The translations under genes and the position numbers were made by a program. 45,122 bases of DNA from a virus. The first letter of the stretch is position 1. Every line of letters starts with the position of its first letter. Positions 1,956 through 40,233 of this stretch are shown here, piece by piece. The notes under the pieces were generated by a model that saw only the letters and a program-made list of their open reading frames with translations, did not search any database and had not been told where the DNA came from. Location: positions 1 to 45,122 of the IMG/VR virus record IMGVR_UViG_3300008113_000092; one strand, 5' to 3'.

Positions 1956-3566
1956 TTATAGTTTAAATTCTCCGCTGTCTCCAGATTCAGTAGATCCTCC
2001 TTCTTCACCTTCTGTTCCTGCTTCTTCTTCAGCTTTCTTTTTTTCTTCAGCGGCTTTTTTCTTAGCCTTAACATTATCTAATAAGTCCTGTCCTTTAACT
2101 CCTAGCCATCTATCAACTAGGAAATCCATATTGAAGTATTTTTTACCCTCTGAATTCATAAGTCCAGAGATCTTAATTATTTGATCTTTTCTAGCTAATA
2201 AAACTTCCATTTCTTTAGCTTCTCTGAATATATTTTCCTTTACGTAATCTAAACCGAACTCTGATTTAATTAAATAGTCTTTTTTCAGATGCGGAAAATC
2301 TAAACAAAATTGGACCCATAGGGGTTTCATTAATATGTCCTGGTATATTGACCTTAATCTGTTTATGAATTTAGCAAACCTTATTTCTTCCTGATCTAAG
2401 CCCTCTGCTGTAAATGTGATAGTACCCTCAGATCCTGATTCTTCCCTACCAAATCTAGTAGCAGGTATTTTGGAATCCATTCTTAGTTTGTTGGCAAAAT
2501 ATTTAAGAACTGTCGTATCGGAGAATGCTGTAGCATCTCCACCACCAGGCAAAGGCTGTATATCTGGAGTCCCGTTAGGTGATGAAGGCATTAGATAGTT
2601 TTTAAAGAATTGTATCTTTGGTCTACCATCAACTGTTAATTCCCCACTATCTGTATTCAATCTTATATCTTCTTTATATATAGACATAAGTTCTCCTAGG
2701 GTTTGTTTAGCTTTTTGTGGAGATCTAGTACCTATAGGAACTGTCATTGCCATCCTGTATGATGAGTTCATCACGTTCCATATAATACGTGTGTGTTCCA
2801 TGATTCTTAGCAAGTTGAATGATCTGATCATTCTCTCACAGTAGCTAACTCTGGATGATGTTCCACCTCCCTTTGCGTAACTTATATAGATTATTTGTGA
2901 ATCGTATAGTTTTCTTGTTAATGTAGGGTTATCTGGATATTGCATCCATATATCTACAAATGAACCGTCAGGCTGTGCTTCTACCGTCGGAACTAAAGAA
3001 GCAGGATCTAACTCCTTAAATCCTACAATATTTTTACCTTTCTTGTCAAATACAATCTCAAATGCTATTATACCATCAACTAAGAATTTTCTAAAAAGAT
3101 GCCAAGCTGATATGTCTTGATTGAATCCAAATAGGTTGTATATTTCCTTATATCTTTTCTGAACTTTCTCGTATGTCTCTTCGTCCACATCCTCGTGATT
3201 CATGAAAGAAAAATACGACCAGAAGTTCTTTTCGTCATAGACTATGGACTCGTCGCATATAGTATCTAAAATAAATTCTATCTCTGGGTTTTGTGCAAAA
3301 CCTTGTAAATAGTGTCTTTTGTTTTTATAATCCTTATCAAAATAAGCAATATATTGTTTTGTAGTAGTATCCGCTCTTCTTAAACCAAATAGAAAAGATT
3401 CATCCTTAATTCCACCTTTTTGTAAAAACTGAGCTTCTGTTATACCTACAGCTTGCGAATTTTTAACAACAAGATCCTCGTAGGCCATACCAAAGCTACT
3501 TACCTTCTTGATATTTTCTATTATGGAATTGAAAAAAGATTTTTTATCGTCAGTAAACCCTGCCAT
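1956..3566 (-). CDS. Portal vertex protein, gp20 family (copy B)
   Basis: This 536-residue protein is a full-length paralogue of the next gene downstream and keeps the same blocks: YIAYFDKDY, ILDTICDESIVYDEKNF, SYCERMIRSFNLLRIMEHTR, PQKAKQTLGELMSIYKEDIR, DSKIPATRF, EEIRFAKFINRLRSIYQDI and KPLWVQFCLDFPHL. Neither copy shows truncation or an internal stop. The C-terminal tail is Lys/Glu-rich and then Gly/Ser-rich. The two portal genes are 6 nt apart and must be co-transcribed. A GATATATA element lies 19 nt before this start. T4 has a single portal gene, so one copy may be structural and the other may form a mixed ring or have another role. The sequence does not say which. Confidence 0.88.
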   Translation of the reverse strand: MAGFTDDKKSFFNSIIENIKKVSSFGMAYEDLVVKNSQAVGITEAQFLQKGGIKDESFLFGLRRADTTTKQYIAYFDKDYKNKRHYLQGFAQNPEIEFILDTICDESIVYDEKNFWSYFSFMNHEDVDEETYEKVQKRYKEIYNLFGFNQDISAWHLFRKFLVDGIIAFEIVFDKKGKNIVGFKELDPASLVPTVEAQPDGSFVDIWMQYPDNPTLTRKLYDSQIIYISYAKGGGTSSRVSYCERMIRSFNLLRIMEHTRIIWNVMNSSYRMAMTVPIGTRSPQKAKQTLGELMSIYKEDIRLNTDSGELTVDGRPKIQFFKNYLMPSSPNGTPDIQPLPGGGDATAFSDTTVLKYFANKLRMDSKIPATRFGREESGSEGTITFTAEGLDQEEIRFAKFINRLRSIYQDILMKPLWVQFCLDFPHLKKDYLIKSEFGLDYVKENIFREAKEMEVLLARKDQIIKISGLMNSEGKKYFNMDFLVDRWLGVKGQDLLDNVKAKKKAAEEKKKAEEEAGTEGEEGGSTESGDSGEFKL

Positions 3567-11861: not shown

Positions 11862-12530
11862 TCAATCGTTAAAAGTTAAATTAACACCAGGAAACATCTC
11901 TCTTACCTTTATCCTGGCTCTTCTAATCCTTGTTGCTATAGCTCTTTTTTTCATACCGTACTTATCAGCGATTTCTTGGTATTTCATTCTTAATATCTCT
12001 CTGTCTATTAAAATGTCCTTGTATATCTCTGGTAATTCCTGCATTTTTTCAACAACATTTTCGTATAGATCTTCCATATCGTCACTATCAACAGGAATGT
12101 AATCATAATCTGAATCTAATGTTATTGTTGATGTTTGTGGTGAAAAATGAGAATCGTCAGAGTTTTCTTCATTGTTTCTGACAATTTCGTGTATCATTGG
12201 CATATATCTGTCCTCATTTTTCTTAATAACTAGAGACTCATTCCTTGCTATATTGTATACCCAAGTGGAAAAATTACCTCTAGATGGATCATATTGAGAT
12301 ATTTTTGTCCATATTTTAGCCATTGTATTTGATACCGCGTCTTCCGCAGCCTCCTGCTCAACCAATATTGATTTACAATGGTTTAATAATCCTGGTTTAA
12401 TTCTCTTATACAATTCTACAAAGTCCTTCTCTGAAGAGCTTCTCATGAAACTCTCCGCCAATTCCTGAATGTTTTTTACTGCCATAAATTCTAGTTTTTG
12501 GGTTAATGTTAGTTTATTATTAAATTTCAA
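11862..12530 (-). CDS. ECF-type (sigma-70 family) sigma factor
   Basis: A 222-residue protein with both ECF domains. Region 2 is at about residues 40-105 (KRIKPGLLNHCKSILVEQEA, SNTMAKIWTKISQYDP and NFSTWVYNIARNE). Region 4 is at about residues 165-215 (MQELPEIYKDILIDREILRM, YQEIADKYGMKKRAIATRIR and RARIKVREMFPG), containing the helix-turn-helix that reads the -35 element. The two are joined by an acidic linker. There is no anti-sigma gene next to it. Its start overlaps the dCMP deaminase stop by 11 nt. A phage ECF factor alongside gp55 suggests a middle or alternative promoter class. Host anti-sigma interplay is also possible. Confidence 0.85.
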   Translation of the reverse strand: MKFNNKLTLTQKLEFMAVKNIQELAESFMRSSSEKDFVELYKRIKPGLLNHCKSILVEQEAAEDAVSNTMAKIWTKISQYDPSRGNFSTWVYNIARNESLVIKKNEDRYMPMIHEIVRNNEENSDDSHFSPQTSTITLDSDYDYIPVDSDDMEDLYENVVEKMQELPEIYKDILIDREILRMKYQEIADKYGMKKRAIATRIRRARIKVREMFPGVNLTFND

Positions 12531-12960
12531 TTCTTTTTATTTCTATCCCAGCTTCTTCCAAAAGTTTAAAAGAATCAGTTTTTCTATAAACTTCCGAATA
12601 TACAACTCTTTTAATTCCTGCCTGAATTATAAGTTTTGCACAATCAAAACATGGGGATAAAGTCACATACAATGTAGCATCCTCTGAGCTATTTGTACTC
12701 TTTGCTATTTTAGTAATGGCATTAGCCTCTGCGTGAAGTACAGTTGGTAAAGTATTATCATTGCAATCTTCACAATCATTAGAAAATCCTGAGGGAGTTC
12801 CGTTATATCCATCGGATATAATTCTTCCATCCCTAACTATTAGGCATCCTACTTGATTTCTTTTACAGTATGAGTTTTCTGCCCATACTTTAGCCATTCT
12901 TAAATATAAAAGATCTATCTTATCCTGCTTGTGTTGTAGTGGGCTCAGATGTTTCTGCAT
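12520..12960 (-). CDS. Deoxycytidylate (dCMP) deaminase
   Basis: About 146 residues with the zinc deaminase signature. His-Ala-Glu (LHAEANAI) supplies the zinc ligand and catalytic Glu, and PCFDC supplies the two Cys ligands. Around these are YLRMAKVWAENSYCKRNQVG and the C-terminal GIKRVVYSE typical of the dCMP/ComE deaminase family. It turns dCMP into dUMP, feeding thymidylate synthesis. The frame opens at TTG 12963, but the adjacent ATG at 12960 is the likelier start. It overlaps the gene upstream by 41 nt. It fits with the thymidylate-synthase-fold gene at 38.3-39.1 kb. Confidence 0.88.
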   Translation of the reverse strand: MQKHLSPLQHKQDKIDLLYLRMAKVWAENSYCKRNQVGCLIVRDGRIISDGYNGTPSGFSNDCEDCNDNTLPTVLHAEANAITKIAKSTNSSEDATLYVTLSPCFDCAKLIIQAGIKRVVYSEVYRKTDSFKLLEEAGIEIKRIEI

Positions 12961-13195
12961 CAACCGAATCTTTTAAAGGTGTAACTTCAATTTTAAAACG
13001 TTCAACAATATGGAATGTATCCATAAGTCTAAAAGTACCTAAAAGATTCAAGATTTTGTTAATTTCATCCTCACTAAATTCTAATTTTTCTTCGTTCTCG
13101 ATAAGATTTAAGCATTCCTTATAGCTTCCATAGCTATTTAGAAACTCTGATAAAGTAGCTTTAAGCTCCTTTGTAATTTCGAAATTGTTACTCAT
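12920..13195 (-). CDS. Small helical protein, function unknown
   Basis: A 91-residue protein starting MSNNFEITKELKATLSEFLN. The frame extends upstream to 13288, but the ATG at 13195 has an A-rich Bacteroidota-like leader (AAAAATAAATAAT), and the longer form would overlap the upstream gene's stop. The composition is helical and acidic, with FRLMDTFHIVERFKIEV in the middle and a Thr-rich tail. No motif of known function is seen. It overlaps the deaminase start and probably supports its translation. Confidence 0.6.
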   Translation of the reverse strand: MSNNFEITKELKATLSEFLNSYGSYKECLNLIENEEKLEFSEDEINKILNLLGTFRLMDTFHIVERFKIEVTPLKDSVDAETSEPTTTQAG

Positions 13196-16786: not shown

Positions 16787-17365
16787 TTAGTTAAAAACGT
16801 CTTCGAAATAATCTGCTCTAAAGGATAATGCTATCTTATGTGGTGTAGTACCGTTTGTATAATCAAGATCCATAGATTTAATTTGATCTACCGGAAAACA
16901 GTTAAGTAATTTAATTCTTCTGAAAACGTCTCCTTGTTTATTAAATACAGATATCAGAATATAAGTACCTCCAGCATATACAGATTTAATACCCATAGCA
17001 CCAGTTAATGGATTATATACAAGATCTGACCATTGACGTAATGTTTTGAATACGTAGTTGCTGTTTTGATCATCCAAGTTAGTTTCGAATTCTATTCTAA
17101 CTTTAACCCCAGTATCATCAATTGCTCCACCTGCATATCTTCTTTTAGAAAACTTGTATCTCTGCTCCATTGGTTGAGGGTTTTTATCTACCGTTATACC
17201 AGATACAGATAAAACATTCTCAACTAAAAGAGTTCTACCAGGGTTACCTACCGGATTGGAAACACCTACCGGTGGTTGTATAATAACCTCGAATTGGTTA
17301 AGGTATACTGGCTCGTATAATTGTACTGCCGCTTTTGCTGAGTTAAAATGTGGTAATCCTGCCAT
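16787..17365 (-). CDS. Tail tube protein, gp19 family (copy 1)
   Basis: A 192-residue protein of the T4 gp19 tail-tube family, which stacks as hexamers to form the inner tube for DNA ejection. Visible blocks are MAGLPHFNSAKAAV, EPVYLNQFEVIIQPP, YKFSKRRYAGG, VKVRIEFETNLDD, FKTLRQWSDLVYNPLTGAMG, FNKQGDVFRRIKLLNCFP and the C-terminal ALSFRADYFEDVF. The F-KTLRQWxDLxYNPxTG core is typical of the family. A close paralogue lies 19 nt upstream. A strong terminator follows. Which copy forms the main tube is not evident. Confidence 0.9.
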   Translation of the reverse strand: MAGLPHFNSAKAAVQLYEPVYLNQFEVIIQPPVGVSNPVGNPGRTLLVENVLSVSGITVDKNPQPMEQRYKFSKRRYAGGAIDDTGVKVRIEFETNLDDQNSNYVFKTLRQWSDLVYNPLTGAMGIKSVYAGGTYILISVFNKQGDVFRRIKLLNCFPVDQIKSMDLDYTNGTTPHKIALSFRADYFEDVFN

Positions 17366-17384: not shown

Positions 17385-17957
17385 TTAGATGAATACATCA
17401 TCAAAATAGTCAACTGCCCATTGCATAGTCAATTTATAGATTGACGTCTGTGTGTAGTTTAATTGCATTTCACTAATAGGAGACATAGGGAAGCAATCTT
17501 TAAGATTTATTTTTCTGAAAATATCTCCTTGCTTATTAAATACGTTTATTAGTATATTACCTGTATAGTTAGTTTTAAGACCCATAGCTCCAGTTAATGG
17601 ATTGTATATTAGATCCGACCACTGACGTAAAGTCTTAAAAGCATACATAGATTTGTCATCGTTAAGGTTGACCTCGAATTCTATCTCAACATCAAGACCA
17701 GTTCTCTGTGGAGCAGCTCCAGAATAATATCTTTTAGCAAATTTATATTGCTGAGTAATCTCACCAGGGTTTTGGTCTACTTGTAGACCAGATATCCTAG
17801 TTACCTGCTCTAGTAATATATTTGCACTCCCTGGATTCCCGGCAGGAGCCGTGATTCCATTGGGAGGCGTAATACTTACTTCAAACTGGTTTAGGAAAAC
17901 AGGTTCGAATTTATTAACCGAAGCCTTTGAACTTGTATAATGTGGTAATCCTGCCAT
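17385..17957 (-). CDS. Tail tube protein, gp19 family (copy 2)
   Basis: A 190-residue paralogue of the next gene, with the same blocks: MAGLPHYTSSKASV, EPVFLNQFEVSITPP, YKFAKRYYSGA, VEIEFEVNLNDD, FKTLRQWSDLIYNPLTGAMG, FNKQGDIFRKINLKDCFP and MQWAVDYFDDVF. Both are intact and near T4 gp19 length. It sits directly after the sheath gene, the position of gene 19 in T4. One copy may form the tube and the other a specialised ring near the baseplate or neck, or both may mix in the tube. Confidence 0.9.
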   Translation of the reverse strand: MAGLPHYTSSKASVNKFEPVFLNQFEVSITPPNGITAPAGNPGSANILLEQVTRISGLQVDQNPGEITQQYKFAKRYYSGAAPQRTGLDVEIEFEVNLNDDKSMYAFKTLRQWSDLIYNPLTGAMGLKTNYTGNILINVFNKQGDIFRKINLKDCFPMSPISEMQLNYTQTSIYKLTMQWAVDYFDDVFI

Positions 17958-35042: not shown

Positions 35043-35384
35043 TCATTTCTGATAATTAGTAAATATTTCTTCACCTTTTCTTATCTCAGATGTTGCAAAA
35101 AATATTATTTTATTCTTTGATGTATCAGTTTCCCAGTCTGCATTATATGAATCATCCGAATGATTAAATATACTACCATAACCCAAACATATTGCTAAAT
35201 CTGATCCACCTTTAGGCCAAGAGAAAAAATGCTCGTGGAGTATCTCCGGATGTGTACCGTGTGGAACTTTTATTAAATGACACTCCTCTAATATTTCACC
35301 GCTCTTTATATTATCTGATGCAAATACACCTCTTCCGTGTATATTAGAATCATCTACATAAATTTTATTTGATCTGTATAACAT
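35043..35384 (-). CDS. SET-domain protein, putative protein-lysine methyltransferase
   Basis: A 113-residue minimal SET domain. It has the opening VDDSNIHGRGVFASDNIKSG with the GRG(V/L)FA motif, the cofactor-binding YGSIFNHSDDSYNADWE (the NHS motif) and the closing IIFFATSEIRKGEEIFTNY (the GEE(I/L)xxxY motif with the catalytic Tyr). Family members transfer methyl groups from S-adenosylmethionine to protein lysines. Here the SET core stands alone with no pre-SET or post-SET Cys clusters. The target could be a virion or host protein. It lies among small early-type genes, divergent from the plus-strand gene at 35458. Confidence 0.85.
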   Translation of the reverse strand: MLYRSNKIYVDDSNIHGRGVFASDNIKSGEILEECHLIKVPHGTHPEILHEHFFSWPKGGSDLAICLGYGSIFNHSDDSYNADWETDTSKNKIIFFATSEIRKGEEIFTNYQK

Positions 35385-38317: not shown

Positions 38318-39121
38318 TTAGAATAATTTCTTGAGCATTTCTTTTTCTGAAGCCCAAGCATGTAAGGAAGTTATGTGCATAGTAAGCATACCTGGTTTTA
38401 CTCCTTCCCAATTTTCAGGATCTTTCTTTTTGCATTGATCGATAAGCCAGAATACTTTTTTAGCACATAAGTAAATATCATCCCTAAAATGTCTGAAGAA
38501 ATCACACGATCTAATATAGTATACAACATGAACCCAGTCACCCCTTCTTATAAAATGATATCCTATAGTGCAAGGAACTCTTTCCCCGTGAACTGTACCA
38601 GTGTCTTCAGGAAACCATATAGGTAAAAATGCTTGTCTAGTAAAAGGTTCTCTAATCATTAAATCTACCACATCACCAAAATCCCCATATTGATATCTGA
38701 ATCCAGAATTTTTTATTTTAGAAAGAACCATTCCATCCTTAGCTAAATTTATATACTTTGGCCAAATTCTTTCTGGGTATGTATGTGAGAATCTAGAGTT
38801 ACCACCAAATTCAGAGTTATTCTTTTGTGCATAAGGCCATCTCTCATGTGATGGCGGGGGATTTAATGGTAATCCACTAACCCTTTCTTCAAAATGCTCA
38901 TCAGCCCAATCAAAATTTGGTTTTATCTGTTCCCCTATTACTTTAATATCCTCGTCCATCTGACAAGAAAATGAAAGATTTAATGTTTCAATCATCGCAT
39001 ATTTAGAATCGTGCTTAATTTCTTTTCCCTGCCATTTTTCTGTATGAACGATATAGGAGTAATCATACATTTGCTGTGCGGTCCATTTAATCACATCATT
39101 AAATCTTCCAAATTTTTTCAT
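38318..39121 (-). CDS. Thymidylate-synthase-fold enzyme, predicted dCMP hydroxymethylase
   Basis: A 267-residue protein. It has catalytic Cys184 in RVPCTIGYHF, Arg204-Ser205-Cys-Asp207 and His254 in SLHAW, plus FGDVVDLMIREPFTRQAFLP upstream. Spacing matches E. coli thymidylate synthase exactly: Cys to Arg is 20 residues and Arg to the substrate-selecting residue is 11. That last residue is Asn177 in thymidylate synthases (uracil binding). Here it is Asp215 (RDDIY), as in T4 gp42, where Asp179 selects dCMP. I therefore predict hydroxymethylation of dCMP and probably 5-hydroxymethylcytosine DNA. Plain thymidylate synthase is the alternative. It lies near a GMP-reductase-like gene. Confidence 0.7.
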   Translation of the reverse strand: MKKFGRFNDVIKWTAQQMYDYSYIVHTEKWQGKEIKHDSKYAMIETLNLSFSCQMDEDIKVIGEQIKPNFDWADEHFEERVSGLPLNPPPSHERWPYAQKNNSEFGGNSRFSHTYPERIWPKYINLAKDGMVLSKIKNSGFRYQYGDFGDVVDLMIREPFTRQAFLPIWFPEDTGTVHGERVPCTIGYHFIRRGDWVHVVYYIRSCDFFRHFRDDIYLCAKKVFWLIDQCKKKDPENWEGVKPGMLTMHITSLHAWASEKEMLKKLF

Positions 39122-39165: not shown

Positions 39166-40233
39166 CTATTTATTGAATCTATCTAGTGAATTTTTAGATA
39201 TATGATTAAATCTAACCTTACCTACAAATTCTCCTATAGTTAAACAGTCAGTATAGCTCATCGCGGATCTTAGATAATCTCTAAAATTTTCTGTCCATCC
39301 ACCTATAGTGTATTCTACAGGTTGCATTTTAGAAATTCCCTCGGATGTTTTTAGATCAGTTTTTCCTAAGCTTTTTTGTACCTCCTTTGTTGACATTCCT
39401 CTAAATTTTTTAAAAAATTTTCTTCCTGCTTCAAATTGTAAAAGAACATCTATAGAATACTGATCAACTTTTCCTCCCGGTTCTGTCCAAGAATCATATT
39501 TTTTGTTTCCCTCGTACGTTTCTCCGCAGCTTTCTAAAGCTTTATTAAACATACTTCCAAGCATAACATAGTCAGCTCCGAGTGCAAGTGCCTTTATAAC
39601 ATCCGAATATTTTTTAAACCCTCCATCAGCAACTATTTTAGTTGAGATATTCCTTTCCTTTTGTATTTTTGCAGTTTCGTGAATCAAAGAAGCCATGGGA
39701 TATCCAACTCCGGTTTGAACTGTGGTTAAACATCCAGCTCCATTACCGATACCCATTCTGACAAAATCAGCTCCTGCTTGTGCAAGAGAAAGAAATGTTA
39801 AGGGATTAGCACAATTACCTACCATAATAACGATAGATCTTCCATATTTATCTTTTGCGCTAACTAGCATCTCCCTAACTATATCCATATGACCGTTAGC
39901 TATATCAATTAAGGCGTACGATTTTTCACCTGGCTTAAGGTTTATATGGTTATCTAAAAATATCTCTTTAAAATCGTCTAAACCATAAGAATACCAAGTC
40001 TTGTAGTCTGTAGAATAATAGTCTTTGTGGTATCCTGAAGACATTCTAGGAATAATCCCGTATATTTTATTTTCTTGAAAAACTTTATAGTTGGAATGAT
40101 CTATAACAGTATCCATCGGGGCAGTAAATAATGGGAACATTTGTTTCTCGTCGAAAACATCAACGCTTTTTCTAGATCTTATACTAGTGTGTAATTCAGG
40201 TTCTATTAGAATATCATCAAAGTCAAATAACAT
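39166..40233 (-). CDS. GMP reductase-like enzyme (IMPDH/GMPR family)
   Basis: A 355-residue TIM-barrel enzyme without CBS domains. Blocks are FDDILIEPELHTSIRSRKSV at the start, TAPMDTV, DIANGHMDIVREM, MVGNCANP, GADFVRMGIGNGAGC with catalytic Cys168, QTGVGYPMASLI, IVADGGFKKYSDVIKALALG, ADYVMLGSMF and RGMSTKEVQ followed by SEG. The segment between RGM and SEG is short and lacks the Arg-Tyr flap of IMP dehydrogenase, which favours GMP reductase (GMP to IMP). The gene lies after a terminator with its own AT-rich leader (GATATAAAAAATAAAA). It would rebalance purine pools from degraded host nucleic acid. Confidence 0.75.
   Translation of the reverse strand: MLFDFDDILIEPELHTSIRSRKSVDVFDEKQMFPLFTAPMDTVIDHSNYKVFQENKIYGIIPRMSSGYHKDYYSTDYKTWYSYGLDDFKEIFLDNHINLKPGEKSYALIDIANGHMDIVREMLVSAKDKYGRSIVIMVGNCANPLTFLSLAQAGADFVRMGIGNGAGCLTTVQTGVGYPMASLIHETAKIQKERNISTKIVADGGFKKYSDVIKALALGADYVMLGSMFNKALESCGETYEGNKKYDSWTEPGGKVDQYSIDVLLQFEAGRKFFKKFRGMSTKEVQKSLGKTDLKTSEGISKMQPVEYTIGGWTENFRDYLRSAMSYTDCLTIGEFVGKVRFNHISKNSLDRFNK

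Follow-up and report, generated by a model that had tools for sequence, protein, structure and literature searches.

The window analysed here is a stretch of 45,122 nucleotides, a 45-kb IMG/VR record of a T4-like phage with a gp17-like terminase, SbcCD, a DnaB-like helicase, a RecA-like protein, a gp55-like sigma factor and a tail sheath. One of its genes resembles thymidylate synthase (TS) and encodes Asp at the position of TS Asn177, which raises the questions of which nucleotide the enzyme uses and which group it places on C5.

The gene family and its active-site residues

The gene, predicted to encode a TS-superfamily dCMP C5-modifying enzyme of 267 amino acids, occupies 38318..39121, as the initial annotation had it, with the ORF itself running along the minus strand from an ATG at 39121 to a stop codon whose last base is 38318; a reading-frame check found stops throughout the plus strand across 38318-39121. 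It is a real member of the TS superfamily. Its product matches the phrog_160 'thymidylate synthase' profile (E 5.9e-25), and its AlphaFold models (pLDDT 78 and 82, pTM 0.79 and 0.82) returned only TS-fold enzymes (MilA, AfhB and TS) as top structural matches in the PDB, with E-values down to 4e-13; the lowest E-value was obtained for the CMP hydroxymethylase MilA and the top target-normalised TM-score, 0.76, for 9iqu (AfhB). Of the features of canonical TS (PF00303), the window protein lacks Asn177 and the C-terminal tail, and, searched alone, it scores under the curated cut-off (E 0.053; 13.1 bits vs 24.3).

Homologues were collected from IMG/VR by sequence (30 loci) and by profile (466 matching stretches, of which the best 80 were used), together with 106 annotated phage records and seven genome contigs, the latter probably being misbinned phage DNA. 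The genome bins in which the gene occurs (L176-L182) are labelled Lokiarchaeota, Acidobacteria, Pacearchaeota and others, and probably contain phage contigs binned with cells. All conservation counts refer to 81 distinct homologues, with 24 representatives less than 70% alike. In the window protein, Cys184, Arg204 (+20), Ser205, Asp207 (+23) and Asp215 (+31) repeat the spacing of Cys146, Arg166, Ser167, Asp169 and Asn177 of E. coli TS; both the Asp-for-Asn exchange and the TS-like spacing described in the initial annotation are thus borne out. The catalytic Cys184 (codon 38570..38572, minus strand) and Asp215 (38477..38479, minus strand; T4 gp42 Asp179) are found in all 81 homologues, as are Arg204, Ser205, Arg162, Arg181 (38579..38581, minus strand; three residues before Cys184) and His254 (38360..38362, minus strand; TS His207). 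Since Asp215, Cys184, Arg204 and Ser205 are invariant in 81 distinct homologues, a chance motif is excluded. Asp207 (38501..38503, minus strand), the counterpart of the pterin contact Asp169, is retained in 80/81. The protein ends 13 residues after His254 (median about 14 in the homologues), the position of TS Tyr209 is taken by Phe (62/81) or Trp (19/81), and TS Gly173 is replaced by His (His211). For the catalytic glutamate (Glu58 in TS, Glu60 in T4), the candidates are Asp74 (Asp or Glu in 76/81) and Glu79 (Glu in 80/81), both within residues 56-145, where the alignment to TS is uncertain; Glu45 was also considered and dropped, because its partners in the alignment are first-strand residues, T4 Glu35 and RB69 Glu44.

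In the tree, the window family forms its own clade (SH-aLRT 99), on long branches that make its place among gp42, AfhB and TS unsafe. By profile it stands equally distant from gp42 and AfhB and farther from ThyA (hhalign scores of 66.2, 66.7 and 28.0, respectively, ThyA being represented by four sequences only). The phrog_160 proteins of actinobacterial, Serratia, Yersinia, Pseudomonas and Brevundimonas phages are true homologues, about 38-49% identical and with the same invariant residues, but they adjoin a partner gene and DNA polymerase I; in the window lineage, which is T4-like, no partner was found. The gene represents a separate and widespread branch whose members mostly bear the plain label of thymidylate synthase, also in isolates such as Serbin, FF47/Muddy, Azira, Zuko and Huwbert.

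Substrate of the enzyme

We consider it very probable that the substrate is dCMP, and the initial annotation, which had proposed this, finds support in several comparisons. Asp occupies TS position 177 in all 56 homologues of the gp42 family and all 15 of the AfhB/RB69 type, and likewise in MilA and BcmA (PMC5175136); every superfamily enzyme known to use a cytosine nucleotide has Asp there. In contrast, Asn is kept in all four canonical ThyA sequences that were aligned, three of which come from T4-like relatives and the fourth from Huwbert; known dUMP enzymes keep it too (PMC5175136). Moreover, TS N229D/N177D mutants are described as methylating dCMP in a passage of PMC8670742 that cites Liu & Santi and Hardy & Nalivaika, and the top PDB sequence match of the window protein is the engineered N229D mutant of L. 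casei TS, crystallised with dCMP (1njc/1njd). MetaGPA, comparing environmental phage contigs with and without modified cytosine, gave Asn177->Asp as one of its two strongest residue differences (PMC8670742). Asp177 has already been published as a marker of cytosine-specific TS relatives in phages (PMC8670742); what our comparison appears to add is a separate, widespread branch with invariant substitutions at the catalytic positions that distinguish the two known reactions, and an uncharacterised partner in small phages.

The sugar can be predicted from the same active site. At the sugar-contact positions, MilA has Ala and Lys for ribose, where Ser and Arg go with deoxyribose (PMC5175136). MilA (5jnh) shares Asp at position 177 and is the nearest structure by E-value, but it differs from the window protein in Ala176 and Lys133 and in having Asp three residues before the catalytic Cys, the counterparts here being Ser205 and Arg162 (81/81 each) and Arg181. 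Ser205 and Arg162 hence predict a deoxyribonucleotide, not CMP.

A separate full-length ThyA is encoded in many relatives (5/11 relatives' records and 13/15 larger records), and in Microbacterium phage Huwbert the two genes, an Asn-bearing ThyA and an Asp-bearing homologue, are adjacent. The same pattern of two TS-fold genes is formed by td and gene 42 of T4. Since the relatives usually have both enzymes, the window enzyme is probably not their dTMP source, and the dedicated nucleotide-modifying role implied by the initial annotation gains support.

The group added to C5

The Asp at TS position 177 is informative about the substrate and not about the product. Since it is common to gp42, MilA and AfhB, the designation 'predicted dCMP hydroxymethylase' of the initial annotation is well supported as regards dCMP, whereas the hydroxymethyl part does not follow: the RB69/AfhB hydroxylase has the same Asp, and the counterpart of gp42 Asp145 is Arg in all 81 homologues. 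TS-superfamily enzymes that make 5-hydroxymethyl-dCMP and 5-hydroxy-dCMP have both been published (PMC13390438). To us, 5-hydroxymethyl-dCMP appears the most likely product and its synthesis the best explanation as a whole, a reading that we hold with somewhat less than even confidence.

T4 gp42 (1b49, 6a9a) shares with the window protein the TS fold, the catalytic Cys with the Arg166/Ser167/Asp169 spacing, Asp at position 177, the Arg and Ser residues for phosphate and sugar, Tyr94, Thr after the Cys (56/56 in the gp42 family, 72/81 in the window family) and, presumably, free dCMP as a substrate. The water from which the hydroxyl derives is activated in gp42 by Asp145, the third residue ahead of the Cys, and D145N abolishes activity; Ser94-x-Tyr96 completes the hydroxymethylation signature (PMC6400193). 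The window family departs from both features. Where all 56 gp42 homologues have Asp, AfhB/RB69 Glu and TS Leu, it has Arg181, and the Ser(Thr)-x-Tyr motif reads His113-x-Tyr115 (His in 80/81) in the hhalign alignment on which this pairing depends; the neighbouring Thr114 could substitute. Further differences from gp42 are His for Gly173, Phe or Trp for Tyr209, a shorter C-terminus and an insertion of some 50-60 residues ahead of the Tyr-Gly-Asp motif; with 14% identity by hhalign and separate clades, the two families are not orthologous. Among the sequences compared, Arg181, His113 and His211 are unique to the window family.

The cofactor would be a folate, to which the retained Asp207 points, all folate-using members having Asp at this position. 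We propose that the enzyme acts on free dCMP prior to DNA synthesis, with Arg162, Arg204, Ser205 and His254 holding the phosphate and deoxyribose, Asp215 recognising and protonating the cytosine, and Cys184 attacking C6, upon which the one-carbon unit of methylene-tetrahydrofolate would be passed to C5. In TS, the C-terminal tail shields the intermediate and is needed for cofactor closure and hydride transfer. Given that this tail is absent here, water, not hydride, would end the reaction and give 5-hydroxymethyl-dCMP. A nucleotide kinase, possibly the guanylate-kinase-like one among the core genes, may then provide the modified triphosphate, whose incorporation would shield the phage DNA from restriction.

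Less probable, but the next most likely reading, would be a 5-hydroxylase of dCMP that resembles RB69 ORF048c and the AfhB of phage HY126, with flavin in place of folate and 5-hydroxy-dCMP as a product that is later glycosylated in DNA. RB69 ORF048c is nearly identical to the protein of PDB entries 9iqc/9iqu ('AfhB'), which the depositors describe as a dCMP hydroxylase dependent on riboflavin/FAD, and the product of the RB69-type enzyme is 5-hydroxy-dCMP, the base carrying attached arabinose (PMC13390438). The window family resembles these enzymes in Asp at position 177, Thr after the Cys, an aromatic residue other than Tyr (Phe-type in AfhB/RB69) at position 209, the short tail and a similar helix spacing, and a helix motif, A-[DE]-x-x-[FW]-x4-S/G-G together with D-x-Y-L, is common to it and RB69; the AfhB profile score and TM-score given above, and the GT2-family genes of several relatives, point the same way. 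Against this, AfhB/RB69 have Glu three residues before the Cys and Asn in place of Asp169 (15/15 each) and Val at Gly173, where the window family has Arg, Asp and His, and the gene adjoins no arabinose or other sugar pathway in the window lineage.

The replacement in step of the Asp145/Ser94 pair by an invariant Arg and a near-invariant His could also betray a further, third type of dCMP C5 enzyme with the TS fold, accompanied in small phages by the uncharacterised TS-spaced partner, in which the intermediate or a flavin adduct may resolve in a new way and give an undescribed cytosine modification; this we consider unlikely. More doubtful still is a dCMP methylase forming 5-methyl-dCMP, a reaction for which phage Xp12 and TS Asn-to-Asp mutants are the described examples, since the missing tail and the replacement of TS Leu143, Gly173 and Tyr209 alike stand against the analogy with the N229D mutant, even though that mutant methylates dCMP and is the closest PDB sequence. 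An ordinary fast-diverging thymidylate synthase or a dUMP hydroxymethylase, with Asp no substrate indicator, would agree with the label in most records and with a genome that has a dCMP deaminase to supply dUMP, but is very improbable given the invariant Asp215, the Asn kept by known dUMP enzymes and the canonical ThyA beside the homologue in Huwbert and elsewhere in many relatives. The likelihoods given for these five readings are separate judgements that overlap slightly.

Returning to the substrate, the invariant active-site Asp makes dCMP the likely one, and the phage hence probably builds its DNA from modified cytosine. If so, the carriers of the gene, among them hundreds of environmental contigs, would be modified in cytosine and thereby protected against many restriction and CRISPR systems. 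Because cultured phages carry the gene, the product is testable at once, and the case names the residues and the phages by which it can be settled.

Genomic setting in T4-like and smaller phages

The dCMP deaminase mentioned in the initial annotation is indeed encoded in the window (12520..12963, minus strand; phrog_174, E 4.2e-58; HAE and PCxxC motifs); alone, it is no argument for modified cytosine. The core genes of the T4-like relatives include the TS-like gene, the dCMP deaminase, an IMP dehydrogenase-like gene and a guanylate-kinase-like kinase. The IMP dehydrogenase/GMP reductase-like gene lies directly upstream of the TS-like gene (39166..40233, minus strand) and is adjacent to it in 22 T4-like relatives; it is homologous to Lak megaphage genes, and its link to modification is only putative. 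The guanylate-kinase-like protein (L041:13162-13629, record G001) is conserved in T4-like relatives, where its gene lies close to one for a clamp-loader-like ATPase, and is a candidate modified-dCMP kinase.

Other parts of a T4-type pathway, for which the initial annotation suggested a search, fared less well. Neither a gp1-type dNMP kinase (PF21448) nor a gp56-type dCTPase/dUTPase (PF08761) was found in the T4-like relatives searched, which have the guanylate-kinase-like core gene instead; PF08761 matches were confined to two records of siphophage type, G011 and Yersinia P744, and a weak one in G006. A search of the T4-like relatives for MazG and PF00692 (dUTPase family) likewise gave no match, and DNA polymerases of families A and B were almost lacking among relatives, whose records are linear and probably incomplete. 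With phage records as fragmentary as these, a missing pathway gene counts for little. Glycosyltransferases are present, but they are scattered and surface-glycan-like, and none stands beside the enzyme in the window's group. Avoidance of four-letter palindromes, assessed without a control, gave no informative signal. Proteins of many relatives carry 'FSQ'-type signal peptides, an indication that the host may belong to the Bacteroidetes.

Cultured phages whose genomes measure about 42-82 kb have the gene in a compact cassette of a dNMP kinase, a dUTPase/MazG-like NTPase, the partner gene, the TS-like gene, dCMP deaminase and DNA polymerase I. This cassette has what would be needed to convert dCTP into modified dCTP by way of dCMP and its modified form, and serves dTMP supply equally. 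The uncharacterised partner gene lies directly or nearly upstream of the TS-like gene (L001:2909-3679, L002:7196-8029, L003:7147-7986, L089:6069-6962, L090:5500-6528, L091:5880-6941, L092:5123-5932, L093:4718-5536 and L095:5138-5926), matches phrog_34294 weakly and is called 'pyrimidine hmase synthase' in two records. The spacing of Cys, Arg and Asp in its protein resembles that of TS, but profile comparison with the TS fold gave no significant similarity. A search of the T4-like records for the partner gene of the siphophage cassettes found none.

Several further features were noticed. Methylglyoxal-synthase-like genes lie near the TS-like gene in many large-phage records (flanks of L131, L140-L142, L147, L148, L150, L151, L157 and L159-L162). 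In the window, two adjacent minus-strand ORFs (315-1949 and 1956-3566) both match the portal family phrog_213 and are both conserved in relatives; two similar tail-tube-like genes (16787-17365 and 17385-17957, minus strand; both phrog_32623) stand in tandem; and a small SET-domain protein (PF00856, E 1.9e-13) is encoded at 35043-35384 on the minus strand.
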